Below, in pieces: positions 14,823-50,200 of a stretch of 64,000 nt of DNA. The notes beneath the pieces were generated by a model that was given only the letters and a program-made list of their open reading frames with translations, did no database searches and was not told the DNA's origin. The translations under genes were made by a program, and so were the position numbers. This DNA comes from Clostridiales bacterium. GTDB lineage: Bacteria > Bacillota > Clostridia > Lachnospirales > WQUN01. The stretch spans positions 1-64,000 of the forward strand of contig JAISWZ010000132.1 in the NCBI GenBank assembly GCA_031270945.1, written 5' to 3'. Each line of letters opens with the position of its first letter. The first letter of the stretch is position 1.

Positions 14823-14860
14823 TTCTAGATATGCACCTAATGCGGAAAGAGGCGAGATAG

Positions 14861-31222: not shown

Positions 31223-31558
31223 ACACTCTAGCTAGGTTTAAATTTATTGAATTTATGCTAGTCGTCGGAAAGCTTATGTCTTTATCCATACTAGCGGAGG
31301 CGTTGGCGGGTTCGCCCGCAAGGCCGGCGCGATAGATCAAATCATTGAGCGCTCGAATCATATCACTCCCAAGTTTAGCATATGATATGCACTCAATCGG
31401 GTTGCTATTGCGAGAATAAAAAAAGCAGCTTTTGCATGATGACATGCGTTCTCAATCAACAAGCAAATAATCATGGTCATTAATGCGCATAATTTATTGC
31501 TCGCAAGCAAAATAACACTATGCTCTTAGTTCTATAAGGAGGTTTGATTATCACAACC

Positions 31559-33538
31559 ATGAACAAAGCGCTCATATCGTTTGTGTTGGCTTTCGTTCTG
31601 CTGGCCTCTCTGGCGCCTTTCGCATACGCGGGAGAAACCGTTCCAGAGGGCAACTCTTTTGATGTTGTGTTCGTCATAGACAACAGCGGCTCAATGGACA
31701 CAGCCGACCATGAAAAGCTGTCCTTTATGGCGGCGCAGCTGTTTATCGACCTATGCGGAAACTCCAACTCGCGCATGGGGTATGTAGGGTTCTCTGACAA
31801 GATCAAGGTCAAGCGGCCCATTCAAGAGATCTCAGGGAACTCCGAATTCAGGAACGCGTTTTCGGGTTTGGCTGATTACGGCGGGGGAACCAACATAGGG
31901 CTTGGCTTGAGCGAGGCTTACACATTGTTTTCTGACGTCAAGAAAAGCGAGTACGGCAACAAGCAGGTCGTGATTCTCCTTGGAGACGGAAACAACTGGC
32001 CAACATCGACTCAAAATGTCAGCGAGCTAGACGCTGAAACCAAGGAATGGGCTTCCAAGCTTAAAGCCGCCAACATCGAGATCTACGCAATCGGGTTCAA
32101 CTACGACGGGGAACTTAACGTGGACTTCATGAAATCCCTGCCTTCTGACTCAAACAGGTTCTTTGAGGCGAGGTCAGCTTCGGAAATCCCGCTGATCATG
32201 AGCCAGATATACATGAGCCTCTTTAACGGCGGATACAAGCATGTAGCCGATTCCAAGCCTTTAGGCTCTTTGGAGAGCGTATCGGTCACTTTGTCAACAG
32301 ACATGTACGAGGCGGACATAGTTTTTGTGGCAACAGGCGCAAACATCTCAAGCGTTTCCGCCACAAGCCCCGACGGCCAGGCGCATGCGGAAGGCGACTT
32401 GATTTCCGGAAGCAAGTACTCGCTTCTCAGGCTCAACTTTCCTGACAGCGGGGAGTGGCGGATAGACTACATAGCAAGCGGCGACGGCACTGTTGCCATC
32501 GAGCTTATAACCATCTTTGACATTCCCGACTACGCCAGCGTGAACGTCATATTTGAAAGCAACAGCGGCACTGTCATCTACCCTCAAAACGTCAAGCACG
32601 GATCCGTGGTCGCAGCGCCTCCTACCCCTATCAGGACGGACTACATCTTCAGCGGATGGTTTGTTGACGAGGAATGCAAGACGCCTTACGACTTTTCAAT
32701 GCCCGCAGTGAAAGACATGACCCTTTACGCCAAGTGGGCCATGGAGGTGGCGGCGGTTTACCAAGTCACCTTCGACATGAACGGAGGGGCGTTTGTCAAT
32801 CCGGTTCCAGTAGTGGCAAGCGGCTATCTGGATCTGCCGGAGGCGAACAGCTTCAAGCGAACCGGGTATGAATTCGAAGGCTTTTACCTGGACAAGAACG
32901 CTACCATCCCCTTTGATCCTGAGACGGAAATTATAAAGGACACGACGCTTTACGCCAACTGGACAGTCACTGAGGCCAGCGCCTGGCCTGCCCTGGTTTT
33001 GGCTCTAATAACCGTTATATTGCTTCTGTTTTCTATCTTTGTGTTCCCCAGATTGCTTGATCGCTATTACAATGACCGCAACCCGTTTATTCTATCCGCG
33101 TTGGCGGTGCCTTTAGTTATCCTGTTTTGCCTGACAGTCTACCAATGGTTCTTCTCTTTGCTGGTGCCGACGGTCTTTTATTACGAGGTGGGCGCCCGCT
33201 CCCTTTTTGGCTTTGAGTTTGAAAGGTTTTACTCCAACCTGTTCCTGTACACTGGGGTTCTGGTTCCATGCTTGGCAAACCTGGCTCTTGTTTACCTGAT
33301 TCCATGCCTGGCTCACTTTGACAGAAGCCAAAGGAAAACGCAGTACAAAACCAGCCTGATCTTGGTGTGCGCTTTGGGCGTCGTCACTCCTCTTTTGCTG
33401 ACTGTCCCGTTTGGAGCAAGCCTGAAGTGCGTTCTTTTGTATTTGCTTTTGCACATGATCTCTTGGACTGCCAACTTCTTGCTGTCTTCCCTGGCCGTGA
33501 GCGCCTCGGCAATCAAATCGTTTAGTCTGTGGGGATGA
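31559..33538 (+). CDS. Secreted vWA protein with InlB-type repeats and C-terminal membrane segments
   Basis: About 659 residues. Signal peptide (NKALISFVLAFVLLASLAPFAYA). vWA domain about 34-220 with MIDAS DNSGSM (Asp41) and GGGTNIG. A beta region follows, then two InlB-type (Listeria-Bacteroides) repeats, about 327-393 and 400-468, each ending in LYA(K/N)W. After 475 come about five membrane segments. So the vWA and repeats face outside or lie in the membrane space. First gene of a nine-gene run. I start at the ATG of the signal peptide; AAGGAGG is 16 bases upstream, and a TTG at 31544 lies too close to it. Probably a metal-dependent adhesion or sensing part of the system. Confidence 0.8.
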   Translation: MNKALISFVLAFVLLASLAPFAYAGETVPEGNSFDVVFVIDNSGSMDTADHEKLSFMAAQLFIDLCGNSNSRMGYVGFSDKIKVKRPIQEISGNSEFRNAFSGLADYGGGTNIGLGLSEAYTLFSDVKKSEYGNKQVVILLGDGNNWPTSTQNVSELDAETKEWASKLKAANIEIYAIGFNYDGELNVDFMKSLPSDSNRFFEARSASEIPLIMSQIYMSLFNGGYKHVADSKPLGSLESVSVTLSTDMYEADIVFVATGANISSVSATSPDGQAHAEGDLISGSKYSLLRLNFPDSGEWRIDYIASGDGTVAIELITIFDIPDYASVNVIFESNSGTVIYPQNVKHGSVVAAPPTPIRTDYIFSGWFVDEECKTPYDFSMPAVKDMTLYAKWAMEVAAVYQVTFDMNGGAFVNPVPVVASGYLDLPEANSFKRTGYEFEGFYLDKNATIPFDPETEIIKDTTLYANWTVTEASAWPALVLALITVILLLFSIFVFPRLLDRYYNDRNPFILSALAVPLVILFCLTVYQWFFSLLVPTVFYYEVGARSLFGFEFERFYSNLFLYTGVLVPCLANLALVYLIPCLAHFDRSQRKTQYKTSLILVCALGVVTPLLLTVPFGASLKCVLLYLLLHMISWTANFLLSSLAVSASAIKSFSLWG

Positions 33539-33540
33539 TG

Positions 33541-35313
33541 ATGGATACGGTTCTTGAAACTCTGAAAAACTGGCTTGAGCAAGCGTCGGATGTGATAAAA
33601 ACTTCGATTGACTCGTTGGGAGCATTGGCCAAATCAGAAGAAGCCTCGGGCTTTCTGGATTATTGGATCTCATGGCTGAAAGCGCTCTTCCTGGCGATCC
33701 AAAGCTGGGTCATGACCCGTTACGACCCCTTGCCCATTTGGCTTAAAGTCCCAATAATAATCGTTATTGTCTCCGCAGCCGTTGGAGCGACATTCGCTTG
33801 CGTCTTGGCCCACATTCGCTTCAACGTCCTAAACGCAGGGATATGCTACAGAGAAGATGTCGCAAAGGGCGAAACGCTTTTAAGAAACTACTTTTACGGC
33901 CCTGGGCTTCATCACATCTCAAATATCCGGTCTGAGATCAAGAAAATAAACAGCGGGCACCGCAACTGGTTCGGCCTTGCCTTTTTGCAGAAAGCTCTTG
34001 GAGATTTCGAGCCTGAGAGCAAAGCCCTGCTTGTCCCGCTTGCGCCTGTGTTTCTCGCCCTTTGGGCAATGAGCGTTCCCGAGGTGCTCATTCGCGGCTT
34101 GTTCTGGCGGATCCTGCGTTTGGCGCTGACTTTGGCCCACTTTGCCATTATTGTCGTCGGCTCGCCTATAGCCAGGATCTTGGCTTTCATTCTAAAGACT
34201 GAACAATCAATGGAAGTTGCCAATCTGACCTTTGCCTGCCCCAAATGCAAGCGAAGATCCAGCCAGCCCTACTATGTCTGCGAAAAGTGCGTTAATGTCC
34301 ACCAGGTTCTTGAACCCGGCCGGTACGGGCTCTTTGGCGCGCAATGCGGATTTTCGGATTGCGGCAAAAAGCTTCCCGTATACATGCGAGACAAGAAGCA
34401 CCTTCTGAAAAGCTGCCCCTACTGCAGAGAGCTTCTGGACACTGGCAGCTCCCATAACTTCGGGATCCAGCTGGTAGGCGGCTCAAGCTCAGGCAAGACC
34501 GCTTTTCTTGCGGCTTTCTGGCACTTGTACTTCCAAGGCGCTGGCAATCTAAAAACGCAGCTATGGGTTCCCCTCAAAGACAGGTTTGACGAGCTGGAAG
34601 AGAGCTATGAGATCGGCCTCCCAAAGCTTACCCTTGACACCAACTCCATCGCCTACAGCGTTGAGCACCCGGGAAACGTGAACCTTACCCTTTATGACAT
34701 CTCAGGCAGCGCATTCGAATTCGAGAGCTATTCCGTGATCCAAGAGCAGTTCGGGTATTGCGACAGCGCAGTGATAGTGATTGATCCCCTGTCCTCGCCA
34801 AATGCCCGCGATAAGTACAACAGCCCCTATCACGAGGACTTGCAAGGCTTCTCCAACGCCAGCCCAAGCTTTGTGATTTCAGCCTTCATAAACGAGTACA
34901 GGAAGCAGAAGGGCCTTAGAACCGACCAGGCGATCACTATCCCGGTGGCTGTCGCCATAACAAAAACTGACGTTGAAGCTGTCAGGGGCGAGATAGGCAT
35001 CGCCAGCATCCAGGCTTCATACAGCCTGAACTCCAAGCGTTTCAAGTCTTTCGAGGACGCCAGGAACAGCATCTGCAGGGATTACCTAACCTCTATTGAC
35101 ATGGGTGACGTTGTCAACCAGCTGGAGTTCAACTTCAAAAACCTGCGCTATTATCCTGTAAGCGCCATAGGGCATAACGCCGGAAGCGAATTCGAGCCGT
35201 CTGGAGTGGCGGAGGCCATGGAATCGCTGCTAAAACCCCAGTTTGCTAAGATCTTAAAGGAGGGCAGCTATGGGCGAGTTTCAAGAGAAAGAACAAGAGA
35301 AAGAGCAAGATAA
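33541..35313 (+). CDS. Membrane zinc-ribbon P-loop GTPase-like protein
   Basis: About 590 residues. Membrane segment near 70-92 and a long hydrophobic region about 162-220. Zinc-ribbon cysteine pairs follow (CPKC at 233, CEKC, CPYC near 291). Then a GTPase-like domain: P-loop GGSSSGKT (313-320), DISG as the Walker B/DxxG (386) and TKTD as the NKxD-like base motif (474). The layout resembles zinc-ribbon GTPases found with vWA and chaperone genes in bacterial conflict operons. Start is uncertain among three consecutive ATGs; I chose 33541, six bases after GGGG. It begins two bases after the vWA stop, and its 3' end overlaps the GrpE-like gene by 44 bases. Confidence 0.78.
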   Translation: MDTVLETLKNWLEQASDVIKTSIDSLGALAKSEEASGFLDYWISWLKALFLAIQSWVMTRYDPLPIWLKVPIIIVIVSAAVGATFACVLAHIRFNVLNAGICYREDVAKGETLLRNYFYGPGLHHISNIRSEIKKINSGHRNWFGLAFLQKALGDFEPESKALLVPLAPVFLALWAMSVPEVLIRGLFWRILRLALTLAHFAIIVVGSPIARILAFILKTEQSMEVANLTFACPKCKRRSSQPYYVCEKCVNVHQVLEPGRYGLFGAQCGFSDCGKKLPVYMRDKKHLLKSCPYCRELLDTGSSHNFGIQLVGGSSSGKTAFLAAFWHLYFQGAGNLKTQLWVPLKDRFDELEESYEIGLPKLTLDTNSIAYSVEHPGNVNLTLYDISGSAFEFESYSVIQEQFGYCDSAVIVIDPLSSPNARDKYNSPYHEDLQGFSNASPSFVISAFINEYRKQKGLRTDQAITIPVAVAITKTDVEAVRGEIGIASIQASYSLNSKRFKSFEDARNSICRDYLTSIDMGDVVNQLEFNFKNLRYYPVSAIGHNAGSEFEPSGVAEAMESLLKPQFAKILKEGSYGRVSRERTRERAR

Positions 35314-35857
35314 AGAACAAGATAGCGAAGTCAAAGTTCCTCAAGCGCCTGACATCACCCTGCCAGAGTTGAGCGTTGCCCTTTCAGGCATCAGGGACTT
35401 GCAGCTAGCCAACAGCCAGCTTCTGCATGCCATAGACAAGAAAGTCCACAACGAGTTCGCGGGAGTGATTTCCCGCCAGCAGGCTGAGCTCGACATGTTC
35501 CGCGAAGGCCTGGGCAGAAACGCCGTTCTTTTGCTCCTGAAGACATTCTCAGCCATTTATTGCGACTATGCGAAGTGCGCTGAATTCGATGACGCGCAAG
35601 CCTTGAAATCTAACCTGACCGCTCTTCTTGAAGACGTCTTGCAAGCCCTTTTTGAGAGCGGGGTTGAAGAGCGCGTCAGCGTCCCAGGCGAAAAGTATAG
35701 CGCCAGGTACAGCAAGCCAGTGGAAAAAGTAAAAACCGGAGACAAAAGCTTGCACGGGACTGTAATCGAAAGCCTCAGCGCCGGCCTTTTCGCCGACAAA
35801 ACTGTGCTGGTGCCTGAGCGGGTTAAAATTTACGTTTTTGACGCCGATCACGAATAA
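35270..35857 (+). CDS. GrpE-like nucleotide exchange factor
   Basis: 195 residues. A charged N-terminus (EKEQEKEQDKEQD) precedes a long helix, then a small beta domain ending VPERVKIYV; GEKYSARYSKPVEKV and HGTVIESL fit the GrpE C-terminal beta-wing only loosely. GrpE proteins release ADP from Hsp70. Two Hsp70-type genes follow directly, which supports the call. GGAGG stands six bases before the ATG, which lies inside the GTPase gene, so translation is coupled. It is too divergent to be the housekeeping copy, and no dnaJ is present. Confidence 0.6.
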   Translation: MGEFQEKEQEKEQDKEQDSEVKVPQAPDITLPELSVALSGIRDLQLANSQLLHAIDKKVHNEFAGVISRQQAELDMFREGLGRNAVLLLLKTFSAIYCDYAKCAEFDDAQALKSNLTALLEDVLQALFESGVEERVSVPGEKYSARYSKPVEKVKTGDKSLHGTVIESLSAGLFADKTVLVPERVKIYVFDADHE

Positions 35858-35904
35858 AATTTATTTTTTATTTTTTTATTTTAATTCAATTAGGAGGCGA
35901 CTAA

Positions 35905-37608
35905 ATGGCAGTATTCGGAATAGACCTCGGAACAACTTATTCTGTCATAGCCACGCTAGATGAAAACAGCCAGCCGCTTGTGATACAAAACCAGGACGAA
36001 GCCAAAGCCACTTTGGCTTCAGCCGTGTACTTCCCTGAAGACGGAAGCTCCCCCACAGTTGGGACAGAGGCAAAGAACATCGCTGAAACCGCGCCTGACC
36101 GCGTGGCTCAGTTCATAAAGAGGTACATCGGCAAAGCCAACGCTGACGCCATCGCCGAAAGGGATGGCCTGAAGGCCAGCTTTGAGTACGCCGGCCATAT
36201 TGAAAACCCAATAACCGTCTCATCTTACATTCTCAAGCGCCTCATGGAGTACGCGTACCAGCAGGACTATGCCGTTCACGACGTCGTGATCACCTGCCCC
36301 GCCTACTTCACTGACGAAGAGCGCAGAGCGACAAGGCAAGCCGGAGAAAACGCCGGCCTCAACGTGCTGAACATAATAAACGAGCCTACGGCGGCCGCTC
36401 TGAGCTACTGCTACAACGGGTACCAAGAGAGCAGGAAGGTGCTGGTCTATGACTTGGGCGGAGGCACTTTCGACGTAACCATCATAGACATGCAGGTGGA
36501 CAGCAATGGCGGAGTGGTTGTGGACGCCATCCGCACAGGCGGGAACGACAAGCTAGGTGGAGTTGACTGGGATGAGATCCTTTACAACTACATTCTCACC
36601 GAATACTCGGAGTTCATTGGCATTGACCAGCAAGACCTGGATGTCGAGCTTAAGCAGACCATCCGGAGCAGGGTTGAGGCAACAAAGACGGCTCTGTCAA
36701 ACGTCAAGTCCAAAAGGTTTTCGATCCCCTACAACAATGTCCCCGCTTCTGTTGAAGTGACCAGGGAAACCTTTGAGAGCCTGACCAAAGACCTCGTAAG
36801 CCAGACAATGTTCTTTATCGATGACGTGCTTCAAAAGGCTGGCTTTTCGCCAGACGACATGAGCGACGTCCTCCTGGTGGGCGGATCCACCTTGATGCCC
36901 ATGATAATGGACACAGTCAAGGCGAAGTTTCCAAACAGCAAAGTGGTGCGCAACGACCCGCATCTGGCCGTGGCAAAAGGCGCAGCCATTTTCGCTGGCC
37001 TTAACGTCCAGGAGAACTACCTAAAGTATCACGGCGCCAGTCCAAACAGCAAGCAAGAGCAGCCTAGCGGCAAAAAAGAGGTTCCCCCGCCAAACGTGAA
37101 GTCTGGATTCACCGCTATCGACAGGCTCTCCCACTCCTATGGCCCAGCGGTTTACGTCCAGTTCGAGGACGGCTCAAGCCAGTTCATGATAGACAACATA
37201 GCTTTCATTGGCGATCTGGTGCCGGTTGAAAACGTCAATTACTACTCAGCAATGGGCACAGAGCTGTCAGTTGACTTTTACTCTAATGATTCCGAGATCC
37301 GCACTGGCGACAGCAGGTTCGTCACGCCGACAAAAGGCCCCAACGACGAAGAGCAATGGTCGGATCCAGCCCTGAACGTCAGGTACATGGGCACAGCGGC
37401 TCTGGCGAACCCAAACATCAGGCCAGGCGATGACATAACTGTCACAATAACCGTAAACAACAAGGGCTCAGTCGCCAGCGTCCTGCATGAAAAGACAGGC
37501 GCGGTCAAAGAATGCCCCTTCATATCCCAAAGCGGGCAAACAGAGGAAGAGACTGCTATAATACAAGAGCGCTTCAAGACCCTTTCGACCAGAAGCGATG
37601 TTTATTAA
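35905..37608 (+). CDS. Hsp70 (DnaK-like) protein with atypical C-terminus
   Basis: 567 residues. Full actin-like ATPase domain: GIDLGTT (5-11), INEPTAAALSY, YDLGGGTFDVT (near 182-192), GGVDWDE and VGGSTLMP (325-332). After about 375 the canonical peptide-binding domain and lid are missing. Instead a low-complexity linker (SNSKQEQPSGKKE) leads to a beta-rich domain to the end. So it should hydrolyse ATP but bind a client by a different surface. AGGAGG seven bases before ATG. A 47-base AT-rich spacer separates it from the GrpE-like gene. Confidence 0.88.
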   Translation: MAVFGIDLGTTYSVIATLDENSQPLVIQNQDEAKATLASAVYFPEDGSSPTVGTEAKNIAETAPDRVAQFIKRYIGKANADAIAERDGLKASFEYAGHIENPITVSSYILKRLMEYAYQQDYAVHDVVITCPAYFTDEERRATRQAGENAGLNVLNIINEPTAAALSYCYNGYQESRKVLVYDLGGGTFDVTIIDMQVDSNGGVVVDAIRTGGNDKLGGVDWDEILYNYILTEYSEFIGIDQQDLDVELKQTIRSRVEATKTALSNVKSKRFSIPYNNVPASVEVTRETFESLTKDLVSQTMFFIDDVLQKAGFSPDDMSDVLLVGGSTLMPMIMDTVKAKFPNSKVVRNDPHLAVAKGAAIFAGLNVQENYLKYHGASPNSKQEQPSGKKEVPPPNVKSGFTAIDRLSHSYGPAVYVQFEDGSSQFMIDNIAFIGDLVPVENVNYYSAMGTELSVDFYSNDSEIRTGDSRFVTPTKGPNDEEQWSDPALNVRYMGTAALANPNIRPGDDITVTITVNNKGSVASVLHEKTGAVKECPFISQSGQTEEETAIIQERFKTLSTRSDVY

Positions 37609-37748
37609 AATATAAAAAAATAAAAATAAAAATTAAAAAAACAAAAAACAAAAAATGAAAAATACAAAAACAAAAAAACAAAAAAACAAAAAAACCAACC
37701 CAACCCGCTCCCGCTTTGCGGGAGCGGAAATATTCGGAGTGAAAGCGC
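37609..37748. other. A-rich spacer with a GC hairpin before the Hsp70-vWA gene
   Basis: About 95 bases of almost only A, T and C, mostly A-runs, then a perfect 10-bp hairpin CCGCTCCCGC / GCGGGAGCGG with a TTT loop (37705-37727), then the RBS GGAGTG. There is no T-run after the stem, so it is not a plus-strand terminator; it may be an RNA processing or stability element that sets the dose of the two Hsp70 genes. Confidence 0.6.
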
Positions 37749-39908
37749 ATGGGCGTTTCAGTAGGCATAGACTTAGGAACCACGTTTTCAGCTGTCGCAA
37801 TCATTGGCCAGGACGGTCTGCCAAGGATAGTTGAAAATTCTGAATTCGAGAAAACCACGCCTTCTGTCATACAATTCCGCGATGGCGAGATTGTGTTCGG
37901 CTCAGAGGCGAAAGAGGCTTTTTCAGCTGGCGATCCCAATTGCGCGGCTTTCTTCAAGCGGAACATGGGGCTGTATAAACCTTATGGCACCTTTGGAGGG
38001 AGATCCTACACTGCTGAAGAGCTCTCAGGCATGCTTTTAAAGCACATCAAATCAAGCGCAGAAAACACTTTGGGCTCTGCCATTGATGAGGCCGTGATAA
38101 CAGTCCCCGCTTACTTTTATTCAAAAGAGCGGGAGGCCACAATGGAAGCCGCCAGGCTTGCCGGGCTCAAGGTCCGCAAGATCATAAATGAGCCCACCGC
38201 CGCAGTGATCGCTTACGGCTTGAACAACTGGCGGGTGAACGCGAACATTCTTGTATATGACCTTGGCGGAGGCACTTTCGATGTAACGCTTGTCAGAATG
38301 GGAGAGAACCAGGTTCTCCGCACCCTTGCCACTACAGGAAACCGATTTCTTGGAGGCGTGGACTGGGATGAGCGGATCGAGAGCCTGTTAGTCGAGAAGA
38401 TCCTTGAGTCAACAAGGTTTGACGCTTCAGAAAGCGAGCGGTTCAAGCACCTTTTGAAAGGATCTGCCGAAGGCTTGAAAAAGCAGATGTCGCAAAAGTC
38501 AAGCTCAAAGCTTACAATAAGAATTCCAGAATACGGCAAGGTGACAAGCGAGATCTCAAAGGCCGAGTTTGACCAGGCAACTGTTGATCTTTTGGAAATG
38601 ACCGGAATAATGTGCGCAACCGTCTTGAAAAGCGCGGGAGCAAGCTGGAAGGACGTTTCTGACACGCTTTTGGTTGGAGGCTCAACCCGCATGCCCCAGG
38701 TGCGGGAGTATCTGCAGAAGCTTTCAGGCAAGCCCCCAATCGCGCATGTGAACCCTGATGAGGCGGTGGCGCTTGGCGCGGCGGTTCAAACAATTCTTGC
38801 TGACACAGAATGCGTTGACGGGCCTGGGGCGCGCATTGAAAGCCGCCTGATCAAGCCGGTTGGGGCATCAAAAAAAATATCAGCAAAATCAGTTCCCAAC
38901 ATCAAGCTCAATGAGGTCACAACGCACCCCATGGGTGTCATCGCAATAAACCCCGAGGGCACAATGTACATCAACGAGCTGATAATCCCTGCAAACCACC
39001 AGATCCCAACGCGCCAGGCCAGAAGCTTCAAGTACGCAACCTCGGCTTACGGCAGCAACGAGCTTGAGATCTACGTCCTGCAAGGCGACAGAAAGCCTTT
39101 GGATTGCGTAATCCCCTACAAGTACGTGGCAACTGGGATCAAGCATGGCGCAACTCCTGAGACCACTATCCGGATACAGTACAGCTACGACCAGAATGGG
39201 ATAATCCATGTCCAAGCCAGGCAGGGCGATTCCAAGACGGACTTGCCAATCAGGAAAGAGCCAGTGCCAGAAGACATGTCCATGTACGGCAAACCGATAG
39301 AGAAAAGGCCGCCAGCTCCAGAGCCGCTGTCAATAATGCTTGCCATTGACACAAGCGGAAGCATGTACGGAGCGCCAATGCAAGAGGCGAAGATGGCCAT
39401 GGCGTCTTTCGTGAACCAGTTCAAGAGCCGAATGATCGGCGGCACAGCCAGAATCGGCATTCTCGCGTTCACTTACGGCCCCGAGACAGTCTTGCGGCTG
39501 ACCTCCGACCCAGCCCAATGCCTGAGCGCCATAGAGACCATTGAAAGATATGGAAGATCTGGCATTCACCCCTTGGACGGCATAAAGTCCGAGCTTCGGG
39601 AAGCGCCAGGCAGGAAGTGCTCCATCGTCTTGACTGACGGAGAATGGTCTGACGGCGGCACCGCCATTCCCGCCGCAAAGAAGTGCCACGAGGCTGGCAT
39701 AGAGATAGCGGCTATAGGCTTCGGCTACTTTGACCGCGCATTCCTTTCATCCATCTCCTCCTCCGACGCCAACGCGTTTCTGGTCTCCCGGGGCGAGCTG
39801 GAAAGCGCCTTTGGCACCATAGCGCAAAGCCTGGGAACCCAGGCGTCGCCAAAAGCTGGAGAGAAGTCAAGGGATACGCAAAATTCCGAGGTCTGGGATA
39901 TTGATTGA
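37749..39908 (+). CDS. Hsp70-vWA fusion protein
   Basis: 719 residues. ATPase domain about 1-370: GIDLGTTFSAVAI, INEPTAAVIAYG, YDLGGGTFDVT, GGVDWDE and VGGSTRMP. About 390-520 looks like an Hsp70 substrate-binding beta domain (TTHPMGVIAINPEG, LQGDRKPLDC, IRIQYSYDQNGIIHVQA). About 525-700 is a von Willebrand factor A domain with a complete MIDAS (DTSGSM, Asp534; a later TDGEWSDGG). There is no lid. The fusion joins chaperone cycling to metal-dependent binding of a partner. It starts at ATG 37749 after GGAGTG. Cytoplasmic. Confidence 0.9.
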   Translation: MGVSVGIDLGTTFSAVAIIGQDGLPRIVENSEFEKTTPSVIQFRDGEIVFGSEAKEAFSAGDPNCAAFFKRNMGLYKPYGTFGGRSYTAEELSGMLLKHIKSSAENTLGSAIDEAVITVPAYFYSKEREATMEAARLAGLKVRKIINEPTAAVIAYGLNNWRVNANILVYDLGGGTFDVTLVRMGENQVLRTLATTGNRFLGGVDWDERIESLLVEKILESTRFDASESERFKHLLKGSAEGLKKQMSQKSSSKLTIRIPEYGKVTSEISKAEFDQATVDLLEMTGIMCATVLKSAGASWKDVSDTLLVGGSTRMPQVREYLQKLSGKPPIAHVNPDEAVALGAAVQTILADTECVDGPGARIESRLIKPVGASKKISAKSVPNIKLNEVTTHPMGVIAINPEGTMYINELIIPANHQIPTRQARSFKYATSAYGSNELEIYVLQGDRKPLDCVIPYKYVATGIKHGATPETTIRIQYSYDQNGIIHVQARQGDSKTDLPIRKEPVPEDMSMYGKPIEKRPPAPEPLSIMLAIDTSGSMYGAPMQEAKMAMASFVNQFKSRMIGGTARIGILAFTYGPETVLRLTSDPAQCLSAIETIERYGRSGIHPLDGIKSELREAPGRKCSIVLTDGEWSDGGTAIPAAKKCHEAGIEIAAIGFGYFDRAFLSSISSSDANAFLVSRGELESAFGTIAQSLGTQASPKAGEKSRDTQNSEVWDID

Positions 39909-39961
39909 CGGGATATGCCAAAATTTAATTAAAAAAACCATAAAATAAAGCGCAAAGGGCG

Positions 39962-42781
39962 GTGAAGCGCTTGGAACCCCCCAGCTCAAACGAAAGCCTC
40001 CGAATACAGAAGTACGCTGAGCTTCTATACGAAGGGGGCTTGCGCTCTGTCTACGCGAACAAAGCCAGGGAGCAGGCGGGCAAGTCAAAGCTCAGCGAAA
40101 GCGTTGTCAGGGATCTGTTCAAAAAGGCTGGCATAACCGTCCTGGACTCGGACATCAAAACTTGGCTGCCTCTTCTGACTGGCGACACGGACATGAAAAT
40201 CATCAACGACAACATAGGCCTTCTCAAGCTCCAAAAAGACGGGGCTGGAACGGACTTTTCAAAGGTCAACACCCTGTTTGACTTTGTCGCGTACATATTG
40301 GATGACCTGCCAAACGCCAGCACCTACCCGGCAAAGGGGGCAAGCGTTCTCTTGTCCTATGTCCAGCCAAAAGCCTCAATGTACTCAAGCGGCGCGACAG
40401 ACTACGCTCACGCGTGGCAAAGGCTCTGCACAGCCGGAATAACCAAGATCTTCAATTCTGAGGACAATTGCAGGGCTTACAAGAACTCATTGAAGTACGA
40501 AGAGGTAAAGGCTGACTTGGGCGACTCGATGCGGCTTATGAGCAAGGAAGACCTGAAGTCCCCTTTTCTGGCGGAGATCATAAAAGCCAGATTTATCGCC
40601 AAAGGCTTTAGCAACAACGAATCCATAGCCCTTTACAACAAGCTGGCCGTGATGATCGCGGATCCCTACATGCCAGAACAGCCAACTTTTATCATAAAGT
40701 GCGACTCCTGCGGCTTCCAGAACAGGTTTCTAAGCATACAGGACGCTGAGAAGGGGAAATGCAGCTGCGGCAAAGAGCTGTACATAAAGTGTCCCTCATG
40801 CAAAAAGCCAACGCCCAAGTCTTCTGACTATTGCGTCAACTGCAGCTTTCTTGTGGCGGGGATCAAAAACTTTGGCATCTATCGCCAAAAGGCCTTGGAC
40901 GCATTGGCTTTGCTAGACTTTTCTGAAGCCAGGAAGCAACTAAAAAACGCCAAGCTTGCAGACCCCTCAAATCCCAGCGCCATCTCTTTGGAAAAGAAGA
41001 TCAATGACGAAGCTTTTCTCTTTGAGAAGCCGTTAAGGGAGATCGAGGCGCTGAGATCCGAGAAAAAGCTGAAAGCCGCCCTGCGGTCAGCAAAAGAGGC
41101 GGTTCGCCAGTTCCCCCAGCTTAACTTTTCAGACCTTCAGGCTTCTGTTGCCAGGCTTGACAAGATGTTCGCTGATTCCAAGCGGCTAGCGATCACAGAG
41201 CAGGTAGCCGCATGCGAGCGGATACTTGCGGAGTGCGTTGACCATGACGAAGCCCAGCTTTTCTTGAGAAGCAAGCCCCCAAACCCAAGCGGCGGAATAA
41301 GCTTGTATTGCGATGAGCAGCGGGGTTGCGTGAACGTTTCATGGCTGCCGTCACCAGACGCAAATGTCACTTACACATTGGCCAGAAAAGACGGCAGCAT
41401 TCCCGTGAGCCCGGACGAGCGAGGCGTCTCGAAGCTCTTGGTTGACACCTATCAGTCCTCCTATTGCGACACAAAGATCTCTTCAGGCATAGAGTACGGA
41501 TACGCAGTCTTCGCAAAGAGAGCTGACGTTTTCTCTTCAGGGATTTCTGATTTGATCATCCTCTGCCAAGATATAGGAAATCTCAAGCAGCTTGAAGATG
41601 GCGCTGACGGAGTGCTGATCACCTGGGAAACACCTGCCAACTGCTCTAACGTAACCATCTTCAGGAAAGAAAACGGCATTCCAGCCATTGGCGGGCTTGC
41701 GCTAGCTGTGTATGAAGGGCTTGGCGGAAGCTTCCATGACCGGGGGCTGGCAACAGGCCAGCTGTACGGATACCGAATCCAAGCGTCATACGCTACTGCC
41801 AACGGCGAAATGTCCAGCCAAGGATTGACTTTCACGTTCAAGCCAAAAGAGAAACTTATGCCCTTTGATCTGAAAGTTGCCCTTATGGGCACTACCGTCA
41901 AATTTTCCTGCATAGGATTAAGAAAAGAGTGCACTGTTCAAGTCATAAGGCTGAAGAATCCGGTTCCAAAGGACAAAGTTGTAAAGGTTCGTGAACTCCC
42001 CTCTTTGGGCACTTCTTTGGCGACTTTCCCGTTTGTCCCAGGAACGAGTTCGCATACAATCGTTGTCCCGGAAAACAGCTTTTATGACGTTGCCGCTTTC
42101 GCCTACTTTTCTGTTGACGCAATATCCAGCAGCACACAAACAGTCAACACTTACCTGCCTTTGCCATTGGTAAGCAGAAAGGCCAGGCTGGACGGCACGA
42201 ACATCATCTTCCAGCTTCAGGATCCAATACCCGCAAGCGCTAAGTTTGTGCACTACGGGCTCAAAAACGGAGAGTCAATGCTGACTTCCCCGTCAGAGCT
42301 AAGCCTGTCCTGCAAAATCAGCATCGAGAGCTGCAAGAGAAAGCGAAACGAAATTTTTGTCAACAACCCAAGCGGCATGCGTGGCGCATGCTGCCTTACG
42401 CTTTACGCTGAGTACGAGATCGGCGGGCGAAAGGTTCTTTCCGCCCCAGACATGCTGGAAGTGAAAGTTCCAATGTCTATAAGCGTGGAGTTTCGCGCGG
42501 CGGCGAAAAATCTTCGCTCAGCGGTTGAGCTGTCAATCAGGGTCCAAGTCGCCAAAGGGAACGTTGAGTTTATCCCGCCCTTGAACCTGTTTGCCGCAAA
42601 CGAATTGATAGCCACAACCGACGCCATAGCCATACGCAACAACCAGGGAAGCTTCAGCAAAGTGTTCCAGCGCGTCTCATTGCCAAAAGGCCGCGTCCGA
42701 GTCAGGCTGGTTCCAGAAGACAGCAGCTGGCTGGGAGACTTGTCAATGCACTGGATGCCAGGCTTCAATGGCGAAATATAA
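39962..42781 (+). CDS. Zinc-ribbon, helical-repeat and FN3-like scaffold protein
   Basis: 939 residues. About 1-235 are helical. A double zinc ribbon near 247-300 follows (CDSCGF, CSCG, CPSC, CVNC). About 305-430 look like TPR-type helices (ALLDFSEARKQLKNAKLADP, KAALRSAKEAVRQFPQ). Then at least two FN3-like beta domains (about 443-540 and 548-635: VNVSWLPSP..NVTYTLARKDG and VLITWETP.NCSNVTIFRKENG), and a beta-rich end. No enzyme motif. Probably a cytoplasmic scaffold of the operon's complex. The start is uncertain: GTG 39962 is the longest, TTG 39971 has a better-spaced GGCGGTG. Confidence 0.72.
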   Translation: MKRLEPPSSNESLRIQKYAELLYEGGLRSVYANKAREQAGKSKLSESVVRDLFKKAGITVLDSDIKTWLPLLTGDTDMKIINDNIGLLKLQKDGAGTDFSKVNTLFDFVAYILDDLPNASTYPAKGASVLLSYVQPKASMYSSGATDYAHAWQRLCTAGITKIFNSEDNCRAYKNSLKYEEVKADLGDSMRLMSKEDLKSPFLAEIIKARFIAKGFSNNESIALYNKLAVMIADPYMPEQPTFIIKCDSCGFQNRFLSIQDAEKGKCSCGKELYIKCPSCKKPTPKSSDYCVNCSFLVAGIKNFGIYRQKALDALALLDFSEARKQLKNAKLADPSNPSAISLEKKINDEAFLFEKPLREIEALRSEKKLKAALRSAKEAVRQFPQLNFSDLQASVARLDKMFADSKRLAITEQVAACERILAECVDHDEAQLFLRSKPPNPSGGISLYCDEQRGCVNVSWLPSPDANVTYTLARKDGSIPVSPDERGVSKLLVDTYQSSYCDTKISSGIEYGYAVFAKRADVFSSGISDLIILCQDIGNLKQLEDGADGVLITWETPANCSNVTIFRKENGIPAIGGLALAVYEGLGGSFHDRGLATGQLYGYRIQASYATANGEMSSQGLTFTFKPKEKLMPFDLKVALMGTTVKFSCIGLRKECTVQVIRLKNPVPKDKVVKVRELPSLGTSLATFPFVPGTSSHTIVVPENSFYDVAAFAYFSVDAISSSTQTVNTYLPLPLVSRKARLDGTNIIFQLQDPIPASAKFVHYGLKNGESMLTSPSELSLSCKISIESCKRKRNEIFVNNPSGMRGACCLTLYAEYEIGGRKVLSAPDMLEVKVPMSISVEFRAAAKNLRSAVELSIRVQVAKGNVEFIPPLNLFAANELIATTDAIAIRNNQGSFSKVFQRVSLPKGRVRVRLVPEDSSWLGDLSMHWMPGFNGEI

Positions 42782-42866
42782 GCTTCATGCCAGTTTCCCT
42801 GAACCTGGCGCTGCTCAAAACCATAAGATCGCATCCCAATTTTAGAGCTAGGAGGAATTGCCTAAC

Positions 42867-44000
42867 ATGCCAAGCATATTGTGCCCATTCTGCTTCTATG
42901 AGTTTCCTGAAGGCGAACTGCTTTACCACTGCTTGGACTGCGGGGCGGACATTAAAGCCAGCGACTTGAAACGCAGTGAAATAGCGAAAAAAGCGATCGT
43001 CTGCCGCACTCCGGCTTGCCACGCGCGGAATGTCTACATAAAGCACTGCCCTTATTGCAACAATGAATTGCCAGAAGCGCTTTTTGACACCCACAACCTG
43101 TCTTTCAGCCTGATTGGCTCGTCTGGATCCGGCAAGACGAACTACATCACTGTTTTGTTGAACGAGCAGTCAAAAAGGTCGCAAAAGCTGAGAATACACT
43201 TGAACCCCATCACGCATGAGACCAAGGAAACCTTCTCTTCAAACCGGGAGTCCATCTACACAAAGAAGCTTCCGCTGTCGGCAACCTCGCCTGGAAGCGA
43301 GCGCCCAAGCATTTGGATCATCGGCAATGGCAACAGGAACCTCAAATATCTTCTAAACATCTTCGATGGAGCGGGCGAAACCCATAACGACCTGCTTAGC
43401 GAGACCGCGCGAAGAGACTCCCGCTATATCGAACATTCAAAAGCGGTCATATTCGTGATTGATCCCCTCAGGTTCACTGGACTGCGAGAGCTGGCAAACA
43501 ACATAGATCCAGATAAATCCTCCAGATCCTCAGCTTTCGCAACCGAAGAGGAAAACTCCGCCTTCATAATAGGAAACACAGCCAACCTCCTAAGGCGAGG
43601 GCTGAAGATTGACACAAACAAGAAGATTGACATGAACATCGCAATAGTCATCTCTAAAATCGACTTGTTCCTGGAAGCTTGCTTCCAGGGCAAGACTTTG
43701 TTCAATGAGTCCCCGCACGCTAGAAACGGCTGCTTTACCCAGCAGGATTGCGATGAGGTTGACCGTGAGCTAACCGATTGGCTTAGCGACAATGGCGAGG
43801 ATGAGTTCATAAACGCTTTGGAGCAAAACTTCTACTTCAGAAAGAGCGCCTTCAAAAGAAAGAAATGCTACCTGTTTGGGATTTCCGCTTTCGGCGGCGC
43901 CCCTCTGGCAGACGGCACCCTCCCTGAAGTGCATCCCCACAGAGTGATGGATCCACTGCTATGGCTCTTGGCGCAGCAGGATTTCATTGACAGCCGGTAA
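42867..44000 (+). CDS. Soluble zinc-ribbon P-loop GTPase-like protein
   Basis: About 377 residues. Two zinc ribbons at the N-terminus (CPFCFYEF at 6; CLDCG; CRTPAC; CPYC), then a TRAFAC-like domain: P-loop GSSGSGKT (84-91), DGAG (167-170), SKID (263-266). It lacks membrane segments, unlike the related protein at 33541-35313. RBS GGAGG with 11 bases to the ATG at 42867; a TTG at 42858 is too close. It directly precedes the GTPase-associated-like gene, so those two are likely partners. Confidence 0.8.
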   Translation: MPSILCPFCFYEFPEGELLYHCLDCGADIKASDLKRSEIAKKAIVCRTPACHARNVYIKHCPYCNNELPEALFDTHNLSFSLIGSSGSGKTNYITVLLNEQSKRSQKLRIHLNPITHETKETFSSNRESIYTKKLPLSATSPGSERPSIWIIGNGNRNLKYLLNIFDGAGETHNDLLSETARRDSRYIEHSKAVIFVIDPLRFTGLRELANNIDPDKSSRSSAFATEEENSAFIIGNTANLLRRGLKIDTNKKIDMNIAIVISKIDLFLEACFQGKTLFNESPHARNGCFTQQDCDEVDRELTDWLSDNGEDEFINALEQNFYFRKSAFKRKKCYLFGISAFGGAPLADGTLPEVHPHRVMDPLLWLLAQQDFIDSR

Positions 44001-44350
44001 CAGACGCTCTCTGTTATATATGAGCCCACCCAGGACCTTTTCGGTGCCTCACGGAATATTTGGATCTGCGCTTAGCGATTTCCATCTGCGGTTTAAATGG
44101 GTTTCGTGCGCTGGCAAGAAACCTTGATGAAAATAAAACGTATAGTTCGTCAGTAGTAGTACTGAAGACAGCTCCGCTGTCAGGTGGGCGCTGAAATTTG
44201 ACGCGAGCAAAAAGATTGGCATGCAGCTCAAAAAAATAGACTCAGAGCATATCCCAAAATTCATGACCGAAGCTTGCCAGGATCTTGCCGGCGCCTTTAC
44301 GGACTTTTGGGATATGCTCACGCAAGCATTTTGGTTTCGGAGGGCATTCT
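44001..44350. other. Spacer with two MITE-type sequences
   Basis: No gene of its own. A half element at 44033-44080 (CCAGGACCTTTTCGG...GGATCTGCGCTTA) and a full one at 44243-44320 lie between two genes of the same operon. Confidence 0.6.
44243..44320. repeat. MITE-like element inside the operon
   Basis: Ends CAGAGCATATCCCAAAATTC and GGACTTTTGGGATATGCTCA. The open frame of the next gene runs back through it, but the true start is later. Confidence 0.8.
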
Positions 44351-47269
44351 ATGCTGTCACAAGCAATATGGACCCGTTGCGCCAAAGGGCGCGAGCTGTT
44401 GACCGATGGCCGCGCGTCTAGCGGCGGCGGCTTCAAGACATACTCATTCAGCCGTGAAATCACGGATAAGACTTATGGCCCTGTGGATTTGGAGCATCTC
44501 AAGGAAGCGCTGGGGGCGGAAGCGCCCTATGACAAGGTCGCGGCCAAGAAAGACTCTGCGGCGGCGGCTGCTGGGGCCAAAAACGGCGAATTCCTGGAGG
44601 ACGCGTTCTCATACGTTGTGCCGGAGTTCGGGCTTCCGTTTCTCACTGACTTCACAGTGCGCATATTTGTCGCGGGAGTAAATGACCGCCCAGGCAACTT
44701 CATAAGGCAAGCCTTTGTTGGAAAGCTGGATGGACATCCTGCAAGCTACATCAACAGCAGCTCCTTCACTGCCAAGAATTACGATGAGCTGTTCTACTAC
44801 CAGCCAAAAAGTGGCGACACTCCTGATTACCTGCCTTGCGTCGAGAGCTTGGATCCAAACCCTGATCTGGGTTTTGAGCAGGTAGGAGCATTCATCCGCC
44901 AGGGGAACAGGAAGCAAAAGCTTCACGCGGCGGTCTGGTTCTTGCTGAAGCAGCATGAGCTTAGGCCTGAGGAGCGAAAGTACATTATCATAAAGGGCAC
45001 CGCCGCTGAGATCGAAAAGTGGATCGCCGCAATCACCTACGCCCTGTCTCCAGACATGGCCCAGATGGTTCCCTTTGCCACCAGGCTTTCCAAGCCCGCA
45101 ACTGACAACAAGTACAACGTCACTCCAGACGGCAGGCTTTCCAGGAGCCTGAACGCCCCAATAAGGCGCAAGGCCATGCTTGTGGGCGTGGACATAAGGG
45201 ACTCTGGGATCAGGGATGTCAGGCCAACCCCCAACTCCCCTTATGTCGTTTTGGATGAGATCCAGCCAAACACCCAGGTCTCTCATCCTTACTTTGACCT
45301 GATCTCAAGGTTTGACAGCGACCACTACGCGTTCGTCAATGACTTCCTGCGGATCCGCAACGGATCTTTCGGCATGAAGATGATGCTTGACTCCTATGAC
45401 TCCTTCAACATCCTGCGCTCAGGCGCTGTAGGCGCGGATCCACAGCGGCTGCTTTACTCCCTGCGGCTGGTAAAGGAAACCCGCATTCCGAACATCCCAG
45501 GCTGGCAAGCAGCGAAGGATTCCATCGTTGCTGGAGTCGACTCTGGCAACTACACCTTTGAGGCGGCAAAGCTCGCAATAGACATTGACAGGACGAGGGG
45601 CACCCAAGACGAGAGCTTTCTGGCGGCGCTATGCGACTGCATGACCAAAAAGTTCATTGGCATAGCCAGCGGGGCACCCCAAAAAACCCAGCCTACCTAC
45701 TTCAGGAACGCTTACAGCAAGGAAAAAGAGCTTATGAACTGCCTGGATGACGCCAAGACCCTTTTCGCGGAAACGGGGTTTCACAAGACCTTCTGCGCAA
45801 ACGTAGTTGACTTGAGCGCGGAGAAGGTATCCTTCGAGCCAAGCTCCATGCCTCCGCACGAGGCTTCCTCAAGCATAGGCGCATTCTTGGACGCGTACGT
45901 TGGGTGCATGGCCACATGCGGGATTTCTCTCGCCAACAAGAACGCGGAACGCTTTTGCTCCAGGGAGATCACAAAGCTCTTGAACTGCGAGACCAACTCC
46001 AAATCATACCAGAGCATAGCCCTGTCCGCTCTCAACAGGCTTCAAAGCGCGAATCCGTCAAACATAGAGTGCTTGATCAAGTCTTCGCCTCCAGAAAGCA
46101 AGCTCAGGAAATTTTTGAAGCTTAACATGGGGCTTGCGATAGAGCCCATTGGATCACTTCGAGATCTCGCCACCCTTTGCGCAAGCAAGACAAAAGAGGG
46201 GATCACTTCTGACGAGCTGGAATACTTCTTGGCGGAGTACGCCCTTGTAGGCCAGTTCAAGTCAGACGCGCTGGCCAGCTACTGCCTGCCGTCCCTCCTG
46301 CGAACCCCATTGGCGAAAGGGCATCCGCTTCCTAACATGATCGGGTACCACATGTATGAAAAGTGCATCGAGCGCTCTGACGATTCAGCTTACGGCACCA
46401 TCATAGACGAGTTCATGAAGGCGCCGCTTTCTGCTGAAACCAAATGCGCCCTGCTAAACCTGATAGATGGCAAGCTTTACCGATTCCTGCCAAAAGGCGC
46501 CGTCACAGCCTTCGCTTTCTCCAATGAAACCCTGCCAGTCAAGCTTGCAAATAAAGTTATAGACAGTGACTCGTCTCACCTTTACCATAACTCAAGGCTA
46601 ATCGCGCTGTTGAACCTGTCATCCGGGGAGTTCACGCTTAAGCAACTCTTGTCCCCATCTTTCCAGGAGCTTCACTTGCCAAACGCCGAATACGGCAACG
46701 CCCTGATAAGCCTTGCCAAAAACCAGAACCTGTCCTTCGAGGAGCATTTGGCCTATTTGTCCCTGTTTGCCGAGAACTCCGAAATTTACAGAACTTTTCT
46801 CGCGGATTACCTGGCTATGGCCATAGACGAAAAGTCCACCAAGCTTTTCATGGATTTCAGCCGCTTATGCTTGAAAGACCACAACTCCAAGACTGTCAGC
46901 GAGATTTTCGGAGAAGGCGCCAGGCGCAACGCGTTTTCCAGGGCTCTGCCTCAAGCGCTAGCCCATGTTTACAGCCAGAACCTGTCAAAGAGCCAAACTG
47001 CGATAACGTCGATCAAAAAGCTCATAGGCAAGGACGAAAATCTCGCAGCCTTTTGCCAGGACAACTTCGGGTTAAACGACATGCCCGAAAGCAAAGCCAG
47101 CGTCTCGCACCACAATCCTCAGCCAGAAAGGGCGGTTCCAAGCCCCCATTCAGGGTACCAGAATTTCAGGCCCCAGCCGCCGAAACCCGAGCAAAAGAAA
47201 AAGACAGGGTTTTTTGGAAATCTAATTGGAAGCGCGAAAAACGCGCTCAAGAAAGGCGATAACGAATAA
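44351..47269 (+). CDS. Large GTPase-associated protein (GAP1-like)
   Basis: About 972 residues without enzyme or membrane motifs. The N-terminal part (YTFSREITDKTYGPVD-like start, VVPEFGLPFLTDFTVRIFVAGVNDRPGNFIRQAFVG, ELFYYQP) resembles the N-terminal domain of GTPase-associated protein 1. The middle and C-terminal parts are all helical (IIKGTAAEIEKWIAAITYALSPDMAQMVPFATRLS), ending in a Pro-rich tail. I take ATG 44351, six bases after GGAGGG; the frame open from 44285 crosses a MITE. It follows a zinc-ribbon GTPase and precedes the HerA-like ATPase with a 2-base gap. Domain names come from memory of the family; a profile search would settle it. Confidence 0.65.
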   Translation: MLSQAIWTRCAKGRELLTDGRASSGGGFKTYSFSREITDKTYGPVDLEHLKEALGAEAPYDKVAAKKDSAAAAAGAKNGEFLEDAFSYVVPEFGLPFLTDFTVRIFVAGVNDRPGNFIRQAFVGKLDGHPASYINSSSFTAKNYDELFYYQPKSGDTPDYLPCVESLDPNPDLGFEQVGAFIRQGNRKQKLHAAVWFLLKQHELRPEERKYIIIKGTAAEIEKWIAAITYALSPDMAQMVPFATRLSKPATDNKYNVTPDGRLSRSLNAPIRRKAMLVGVDIRDSGIRDVRPTPNSPYVVLDEIQPNTQVSHPYFDLISRFDSDHYAFVNDFLRIRNGSFGMKMMLDSYDSFNILRSGAVGADPQRLLYSLRLVKETRIPNIPGWQAAKDSIVAGVDSGNYTFEAAKLAIDIDRTRGTQDESFLAALCDCMTKKFIGIASGAPQKTQPTYFRNAYSKEKELMNCLDDAKTLFAETGFHKTFCANVVDLSAEKVSFEPSSMPPHEASSSIGAFLDAYVGCMATCGISLANKNAERFCSREITKLLNCETNSKSYQSIALSALNRLQSANPSNIECLIKSSPPESKLRKFLKLNMGLAIEPIGSLRDLATLCASKTKEGITSDELEYFLAEYALVGQFKSDALASYCLPSLLRTPLAKGHPLPNMIGYHMYEKCIERSDDSAYGTIIDEFMKAPLSAETKCALLNLIDGKLYRFLPKGAVTAFAFSNETLPVKLANKVIDSDSSHLYHNSRLIALLNLSSGEFTLKQLLSPSFQELHLPNAEYGNALISLAKNQNLSFEEHLAYLSLFAENSEIYRTFLADYLAMAIDEKSTKLFMDFSRLCLKDHNSKTVSEIFGEGARRNAFSRALPQALAHVYSQNLSKSQTAITSIKKLIGKDENLAAFCQDNFGLNDMPESKASVSHHNPQPERAVPSPHSGYQNFRPQPPKPEQKKKTGFFGNLIGSAKNALKKGDNE

Positions 47270-47271
47270 AA

Positions 47272-50200
47272 ATGCCTGAATACGCGCCCACGCCGCGCAA
47301 CAGACGCAATGACGCCCTTCCCCAGCAGGGCGGGGCGCAGAGCATGCTTGCACCCCGCGAGGGGCTGGAACTTTTAAATCGGACTATCGCGGCGATATAC
47401 ATGGCCTTGAACCAGAAGCATATAGTCGGTCTTCAAAAACTGCCAGTAATCCCTTTCGCTTCAAGCGCCAGCAACGCTGACCTGGAGGATTACACAACCC
47501 TTTACCGGGTTGAGAAGATCTTGTACAACGAAAAGGAAAACAGCCATGAAAAGCTTGTGAGCGTCTTTTCCGCCCTTCATAACTATGTCTCATCAATCGC
47601 CATGGCCATTGCAAGCGACGGCAAGGAGATCTCTTTGTATCTTTGCACCTACGCTACAGAATCCGGAGGGATCGCTGGAAGCTTGCTTGAAAGCAACATC
47701 AGGGGCCAATTCCCGGGAAGCAAGCTGTCAAAGCTTAGCAATTTTGAAAAGTCCTTGTTTTTCAAGTCCCTTGACATAAACGACAGCAAGATTATCAGGA
47801 GCGTTAGCGTCATACCAGGCAAGCGGCAAAAGGAGGAAAGCCAGAACCGGGACTTCACTTCCCAGGGATTCGAAAAGCTCATTGACTCTTTGGAGGGCAA
47901 GAAGTACACCCTTCTGGTTGTCAGCCAAAGCGTTCCCCCAAGCGTGGTTGATGACTGCAAGACAGCTCTGGAAAACCTGGCTACCCTCATCTCTCCCTAC
48001 AAGGATGAGTCTGTGAGCTACGCCTTGAATGAGTCCTCAACAGTGGGCTACAGCTTCTCCAACAACTTTTCAAACGCCGTTAACGAGAGCATTTCAATGT
48101 CCTTTGGCACTTCGCACACTGACGGGATATCCAGCGGAAGCTCTTATTCCAAATCTTACGGCAGCGCCTTCAACTTCAATGGCTGGGGGAGCAACAGCGG
48201 AACCTCTTCCGGAACCTCTTCCGGCTCGAGCGCTTCTGACGCGGTTTCAGAAAACAGGTCAACAGTGTCCGGCACTGTCCTCTCCACAGGAAGCTCCACT
48301 GGAGCAAACACAGGAGAGACAAAGGGGTTTACCCAGACTTACAACGTGACCAGAGAAAACAAGTCTATCTCAGGCCTTCTTGAAACCATAGATGATCACT
48401 TGGAGCGGATAAGCACCAGCAGGATATACGGGATGTGGAACTGCAGCTGCTACCTTTTTACAGAGGATATCGCAACCGCCTCCATATCCTCCAGCACCCT
48501 CCAGTCCCTGCTGACCAGCGACAGCACGATCTCCGCTGAAGTCTACTGCAACCACTGGAGCAAGGAAAAAGATTCTGCGGACGTCAGGAAAGCTTTAACC
48601 CAGTACATCAAGAACTTTCAGCACCCCCAGTTCTCTTGCAGCAGCATAGCGGTTCCAGTCATAGGAGGAACAGCATCTCAGACAGTAACCCCAGGCCTCA
48701 TGGTCAGCGGAAACGAGCTTCCTATTATCATGGGGCTTCCAAAGAAGTCCGTGCCAGGGGTAACTGTCGCGTCAATGGCAGAGTTCGGGCGAAATGTCCC
48801 AACCCAGGTTTCAAGGCCTATCAGGTTTGGCCAGATCCAGCACATGGGAGCTCCAGACATTGGAGAAGCGTTTCTTGACGCAAACGTCTTCTCCTCCCAT
48901 TGCTTCATCACCGGATCTTCTGGATCCGGAAAAAGCAACGCGACTTATGGCATTTTAAAAAACCTGTGCGACAGCGGAGTAAAGTTTCTTGTGATAGAGC
49001 CCACAAAAGGCGAATACAAGAGCGTCTTCGGAAACTGGAGAACCATGTTTCCAAAAAACGCTGCCAACAAAGTGAACATCTTCACAACAAACCCCCGCCA
49101 ATGCCGGATGCTCAGGATCAACCCCTTTGAGTTTCATGCCAGGGTCCATATCCAAGAGCACATCAGCAGGCTGGTGGGCGCCATTAGCGCTTGCTGGCCT
49201 CTGGAAGGTGCGATGCCAGCGTTCTTGAAGAAGGCCTTCGAAGGCGCATACATCAAGAACGGCTGGGACTTGAACCATTCATTGCAGGTCGTAAAAGGCG
49301 ACAAAGAGTTTCCTGACTTCTCGGATTTAGAAGATGTCATGGCCGAGATCATAAAAACCACCGACTATTCAGCCGAGGTCAAAGGCAACTACCAGGGGGC
49401 GCTTCTCACCAGGATAAGCGCCATGACCAACGGCTTCGAAGGGCAGATCTTCTGCTCAAATAGAGGGGTTAGCGACAAGACCCTATTTGACGAGAACTGC
49501 ATAGTCGATCTTTCCAACATCGGATCCCAGGAAACAAGAGCCTTGATCATGGGGCTTCTCATAATCCGCCTAAAGGAATACCGCTACGCGGTCGCCCGTG
49601 AGGCCAACTCTCAAACCAAACATGTCACTGTCCTTGAAGAAGCCCATAACATACTCAAGCGTTGCCCTGAGTCCGGACAGTCCAGCATTCTGACCGCCTC
49701 AGTTGAAATGCTCACCGCCTCTATAGCGGAGATGCGCACATACGGCGAAGGGTTCCTCATAGTGGATCAGTCTCCAAGCGCCGTTGATGCCACAGCCATA
49801 AAGAATACAGCAATAAAGATCGTTCTTCGCCTTCCAGAAGAGCAGGACTGCAAAGAGATCGGAAACGCCCTTGCCCTAACAGAAGATCAGACAAGAGAGC
49901 TCAGCCGCCTTGACATAGGGGTAGCCGCTGTTTTCCACCCGGGCTGGAATGAAACAGTCCTTGCCAAGAGTGACATCTTCAATCCTGTCAACTCAAAAGG
50001 CGAAAAGAAGTATCCGGAAAAATCAGTCCTTGCCGTCAACCATGTCGAGCTGATCCAGATGCGGGGGCTTGCCGTATCCATGCTGTTCAACGCCTTAAAA
50101 GAGCATAAACTCAACCCCGATTTCAAGGATGAGCTTGTTGACCTCATGAGCGAAAAGTGCCTGAAAGACTGCAAAAGCCTCAGCGATGGCAAGCTCGACG

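Follow-up and report, generated by a model that had tools for sequence, protein, structure and literature searches.

An Hsp70 with a vWA domain in the lid position, one of several apparently exchangeable modules, in a predicted GAP1-N2 conflict operon

The window (the whole 64,000-nucleotide stretch analysed here) encodes an Hsp70, referred to below as Hsp70X, that ends in a vWA domain where a helical lid would be expected. Judging from its relatives, a constant chassis of nucleotide-binding domain (NBD) and SBDβ seems to take interchangeable modules at its C-terminal end, at least three in number, of which the vWA is one. This interchange and the membership of the operon in a predicted type of conflict system (PMC7159879) are what most change the reading of the gene. 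We put at roughly one in two the probability that Hsp70X is an ATP switch carrying an exchangeable recognition module in place of its lid, and that it serves as a sensor or threshold switch in a predicted GAP1-N2 system rather than as a housekeeping folding chaperone. The type of system, a predicted GAP1-N2 conflict system, is already known; new here are the exchange of modules at the lid position, the constant tail, the finding that the second Hsp70 has a client domain, and a DNA pump as a likely partner, for which function is proposed from sequence.

Hsp70s are general chaperones, and J-proteins choose their clients. Hsp70X seems to make this choice by itself, through the swap of its lid for a binding module, and no J-domain is recognisable among the operon proteins. 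Should this hold, it would be a testable design for an ATP-gated receptor and would offer a handle on what the predicted GAP1-N2 GTPase systems sense.

The open reading frame of Hsp70X runs without interruption for 719 residues (Table 1) and matches both Pfam HSP70 (3.8e-104) and VWA (5.4e-15). The preliminary description of this DNA had proposed a lid-less Hsp70 fused to a vWA domain carrying DTSGSM, to be checked by a profile search for the vWA fold and by structure prediction. The Pfam matches bear out the fusion, which is far above chance, as the same architecture recurs at 39–55% identity in other genomes. The catalytic motifs are intact: GIDLGTT, FKR (K70), NEPTAA (E148) and YDLGGGTFD. 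In the AlphaFold2 model (15 input sequences, mean pLDDT 84.7, pTM 0.70), the NBD is followed by the SBDβ (about residues 385–505), a low-confidence loop (517–522) and the vWA (527–697); residues 698–708 are disordered, and residues 710–719 are moderately confident (pLDDT 75). The SBDα helical lid is absent from the model, and the vWA comes directly after the SBDβ, starting about 22 residues past it, with no room taken by a lid. Residues 2–507 superpose on ATP-state DnaK 7krt (Z 40.0, rmsd 2.3, 470 residues), and the alignment with DnaK covers only this part, in keeping with the lid loss described before. The Foldseek lists for the model are taken up by DnaK. The DnaK equivalog TIGR02350 gives Hsp70X 331 bits, below its curated cut-off of 822.55.

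Table 1. Hsp70X, its parts and the neighbouring genes in the window
Feature	Position	Strand	Remark
Secreted/membrane vWA protein, two List_Bact repeats	31544..33538	+	25% relative in L089 operon
Second DO-GTPase-like protein, membrane-anchored	33529..35313	+	below Pfam cut-off; relative in L084 above it
GrpE-like nucleotide exchange factor	35270..35857	+	hhalign 95.7%, E 1e-8
Second Hsp70, 567 aa: NBD and divergent SBDβ, without lid	35905..37608	+	
Hsp70X, 719 aa: Hsp70 NBD, SBDβ, vWA and Trp tail	37749..39908	+	
Hsp70X NBD, residues 1–350; GIDLGTT, K70, E148, YDLGGGTFD present	37749..38798	+	
Hsp70X SBDβ, residues 385–505	38901..39263	+	hhalign to DnaK SBDβ 97.2%, E 4e-11
Hsp70X vWA, residues 527–697; D534, S536, S538, D630 present, loop-2 residue lost	39327..39839	+	
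Hsp70X C-terminal tail, residues 698–719, ending NSEVWDID	39840..39905	+	
Zinc-ribbon/FNIII-type component; FNIII assigned via relatives	39962..42781	+	
DO-GTPase2 (zinc ribbons at N-terminus), probable start codon ATG 42867	42858..44000	+	PF19993
GAP1, likely start ATG 44351; N2 type via profile–profile comparison with relatives	44285..47269	+	
HerA/FtsK-type pumping ATPase	47272..50562	+	relatives in L086, L088, L103
LHH (HNH/ENDO VII) nuclease, possible operon member and effector	50656..51372	+	PF14411, 3.1e-18

Hsp70X lies within a same-strand run of genes (31544–50562), which also holds the GrpE-like gene that had been noticed near the fusion. Kaur et al. (2020; PMC7159879) describe an Hsp70/GrpE theme (theme 2) among GAP1-N2 "GTPase-centric" conflict systems, whose immune function is predicted from genome context, and their account and this operon share DO-GTPases (one of them membrane-anchored), GAP1, Hsp70 and GrpE in a single operon, and probably an FNIII-type protein. 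The DO-GTPase2 scores 31.8 bits against PF19993 (cut-off 27). The window GAP1 alone falls below the Pfam cut-offs; its profile aligns with that of its relatives' group (hhalign 99.6%, E 1.7e-24), two members of which, in loci L098 and L101, match PF20013/PF20014. The fn3 match lies likewise in a relative, the L098 protein (1.3e-8), which aligns to the window's zinc-ribbon protein, itself without an fn3 match. By its DO-GTPase and GAP1 matches, and with Hsp70 and GrpE both present, the operon belongs to this Hsp70/GrpE theme, the conflict function itself being predicted. A literature search found no experimental study of any member of these systems, and PADLOC returned no matching system beyond HerA-type matches and one marginal Hsp70 match.

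A DNA-pump-type ATPase seems to be a recurrent part of these operons, with HerA relatives in three related operons (Table 1) and a TrwB/VirD4-like ATPase in two others (L079 and L085); a search of the main text of PMC7159879 turned up no mention of such an ATPase in the Hsp70/GrpE theme. The TrwB/VirD4-like coupling ATPases (L079 643–1941 and L085 3541–4878) precede the GrpE gene, and the window HerA is encoded downstream. The LHH nuclease gene directly follows that of HerA, and its product is possibly an effector or an unrelated toxin. The window's FNIII-type protein lacks the N-terminal ~90 residues (FDPPE motif) of its relatives, and no remnant of them was found in frame upstream. Fusion of the FNIII protein to DnaJ or TPR would be a further trait of GAP1-N2 systems; a DnaJ domain in this N-terminal region of the relatives is not supported (9% in the comparison with DnaJ), and TPR_8 reaches only 0.095.

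When 84,980 species genomes were scanned with the SBDβ profile, 28 loci came up, mostly in Clostridia, with single MAGs of Treponema, Balneolaceae and Paenibacillus; the sampled frequency is about 1–2% of genomes at class and phylum level. The recurring gene order is GrpE–Hsp70–Hsp70X–FNIII–DO-GTPase–GAP1, and in most loci two Hsp70s of different type are paired with a GrpE-like protein. Relatives were found neither in phages nor in viral contigs, and the plasmid set held only matches at 32% identity; an origin from mobile elements was rejected on these grounds. Loci L067 (G000:C666) and L070 (G000:C325), in the same genome as the window, carry a further GrpE–Hsp70–FNIII cluster without Hsp70X and three consecutive Hsp70 genes. 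This genome, with 31 stretches matching Pfam HSP70, looks as if it has a large Hsp70 set.

Among 27 aligned Hsp70X proteins, the lid position holds a vWA in 17, a β-rich domain in nine and a third domain in one. The β-rich module has no match in a PDB sequence search. Its model (mean confidence 57, core about 70–95) matches concanavalin-like folds (alginate lyase PL7, Z 12.3; galectins; CBM66), a fold match from a model of low mean confidence that says nothing of function, the single matched proteins being uninformative beyond the fold. The third module (L081 7949–8797) occurs once; searches of Pfam, NCBIfam and PDB gave no match for it, and it was found in none of 341 genomes. On a tree of NBD plus SBDβ, the module types need at least four changes, two to three of which are forced by well-supported branches, and the vWA proteins of L090 and L092 are nested in the β-sandwich clade. 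Five changes are needed on the NBD-only tree and three on the SBD-only tree, a pattern that looks as if SBDβ and module partly travel together. The window Hsp70X is weakly placed, grouping with a long branch (82/91), so that by this tree its vWA may be either inherited or acquired.

Two tandem genes in L081 have identical DNA from nt 8 to 1237 (the first ~412 codons), past which the SBDβ diverges (55–70% identity) and unrelated modules follow. Such a pair suggests either that the ATPase half has been converted or that the rest was recently replaced; as its source is a metagenome assembly, a misassembly is also possible. We tentatively consider, at clearly worse than even odds, that these proteins form a polymorphic Hsp70 family of diversifying receptors, in which ATPase and docking tail stay constant and modules for client binding and recognition, unrelated in fold (a vWA, a lectin-like domain, others), are exchanged between the two, the ATPase half being identical in at least one tandem pair.

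The tail is the constant element at the other end of the protein. A Trp lies within the last 12 residues in all 23 complete C-termini of the main clade (clade 1), whatever the module type, and in one of eight outside it, Trp making up 0.6% of residues in the Hsp70X proteins. It mostly sits in an acidic stretch (EVWDID, ETWDD, ATWEG, VPTW, ATWLA and others). Because this short motif stays while the preceding domain is replaced, it suggests docking to a constant partner, and constancy alone singles out the FNIII/zinc-ribbon protein and GAP1 as candidates. In the model, docking is no more than hinted at, by residues 710–719 with the confidence given above. Eukaryotic Hsp70s carry EEVD tails that are bound by TPR and J proteins; these are likewise short acidic C-terminal motifs after a variable region, whereas the Hsp70X motif is a different one and contains Trp.

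The second Hsp70 of the operon had been taken to lack the canonical client domain, and a division of labour between the two Hsp70s had been built on that premise. The premise is wrong. Pfam misses the domain, and profile comparison recovers it: the C-terminal part aligns with a DnaK SBDβ profile made from a single DnaK (Neff 1) at hhalign 97.6%, E 2.7e-12, and negative controls (other domains of these operons) stay below 1%. This second Hsp70 thus has a divergent SBDβ, and it is the lid that is absent. A subset of such Hsp70s, the second Hsp70 of the theme, is described in PMC7159879 as having no peptide-binding domain, which our profile comparison contradicts for this clade and which was probably a limit of detection there.

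How the ATPase cycle might be driven is a related matter. No operon protein carries an HPD motif, and wherever the position is readable, neither Hsp70 keeps the Arg of DnaK "KRIINEP", the J-docking Arg167: Hsp70X has Lys/Gln there in clade 1 and, for the most part, Ala/Ser in clade 2, and the second Hsp70 has Asn/Asp/Ala/Glu/Gly. Since both the motif and the docking Arg are missing, a classical J-protein is probably not what drives the cycle. The bacterial NLR bNACHT25, which needs DnaJ (PMC12169576), shows by analogy a precedent for chaperones in phage sensing.

The DTSGSM motif of the vWA was located at residues 534–539 as described. It supplies the DxSxS of MIDAS loop 1 (D534, S536, S538), and loop 3 supplies D630, the four residues being invariant in 15 aligned vWA-type Hsp70X proteins. 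The MIDAS had been called complete, but its loop-2 position falls inside a four-residue deletion found, among the relatives, in the window protein only, and the family has there a nearly invariant Asn instead of Thr. In pairwise alignments the canonical loop-2 Thr faces I606 (against BatB) or S604 (against ANTXR2), and by the latter alignment a Ser may substitute for it. With only two of the three MIDAS elements in place, metal dependence of the vWA is doubtful. The coupling of the ATP cycle to ligand binding by the vWA, the other half of that proposal, fits the anatomy, given the intact NBD residues, the NBD–SBDβ arrangement docked as in ATP-state DnaK and the vWA in place of the lid. From the preliminary description, then, the fusion, the lid loss and DTSGSM stand, and the complete MIDAS and the loss of a client domain in the second Hsp70 fall.

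In the mechanism we favour, that of an ATP switch with an exchangeable recognition module, the module (here the vWA) would capture a ligand or partner, probably via the MIDAS face and with or without metal. ATP hydrolysis would move the SBDβ off the NBD and so change the presentation of the module, possibly with a peptide in the SBDβ cleft. The Trp tail would dock Hsp70X onto a constant partner in the system, either GAP1 or the FNIII/zinc-ribbon protein, and the switch would be reset by the GrpE-like protein. The DO-GTPase/GAP1 pair would then receive the signal and relay it to an effector or to the HerA pump. What the module binds could also be an internal partner and not a foreign ligand.

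In an alternative reading, the two Hsp70s form ATP-regulated multimers as an assembly scaffold, the C-terminal modules being contacts between components and not sensors. Kaur et al. (PMC7159879) propose such a role for Hsp70 and tubulin parts, the presence in most loci of two Hsp70 types paired with a GrpE-like protein would suit it, and the conserved Trp tail suggests a constant internal contact; we give it about half the weight of the sensor reading, since unrelated folds are exchanged at one site while the partners are orthologous, which looks more like changing ligand specificity. A lesser chance is left for a client-specific chaperone that folds or releases one operon protein (e.g. GAP1 or HerA), with the vWA as lid substitute and targeting domain. 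The well-conserved, DnaK-like SBDβ of Hsp70X and the GrpE-like partner speak for it, but there is no J-domain with HPD, the J-docking Arg is lost, and the C-terminal modules vary whereas the operon proteins do not. Most improbable of these is metal-dependent binding via a complete MIDAS, as first proposed: the intact DxSxS and loop-3 Asp favour it, against which stand the deleted loop-2 residue in the window protein and the Asn in its relatives.

Several known systems resemble this one in part. DnaK and other Hsp70 chaperones share with Hsp70X the NBD, the SBDβ, the catalytic residues and, by the model, the ATP-docked arrangement; Hsp70X differs in having the vWA for the SBDα lid, an altered J-docking residue and no HPD co-chaperone in the operon. 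A search of the main text on the GAP1-N2 theme (PMC7159879) turned up no mention of an Hsp70–vWA fusion, of exchange at the lid position or of a Trp tail. The MoxR–vWA ternary systems described there also couple a chaperone-type ATPase to a vWA in a predicted conflict system, but their ATPase is the AAA+ MoxR, whereas here it is an Hsp70 with the vWA fused to it; the Pfam scan of the operon proteins found no MoxR AAA+ ATPase. The Hsp70-like CnuD/CnuCD proteins of CoCoNuT (PMC11090510) likewise place an Hsp70 NBD/SBD inside a defence operon, but the ATP motifs of CnuD are degenerate and the protein is linked to McrBC, whereas the motifs of Hsp70X are intact and no McrB/McrC homologues are among the operon proteins scanned.

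Some further proteins in and around these loci deserve mention. The MIDAS of the window's membrane-type vWA protein (DNSGSM, GGT, GDG) looks complete by eye, unlike that of Hsp70X. For the protein at 25806–27476, relatives lie close to the L088 operon (31%, nearly full length) and to that of L103. Judged by eye, the protein at 53146–54255 resembles a transglutaminase; a weak relative lies close to the L096 operon (14413–15321), and L090 has a Pfam transglutaminase core upstream (2541–3605). Finally, L064 encodes a stand-alone vWA protein (10700–11497) that shares 39% identity with the window vWA; the Hsp70X of that genome has the β-sandwich instead.
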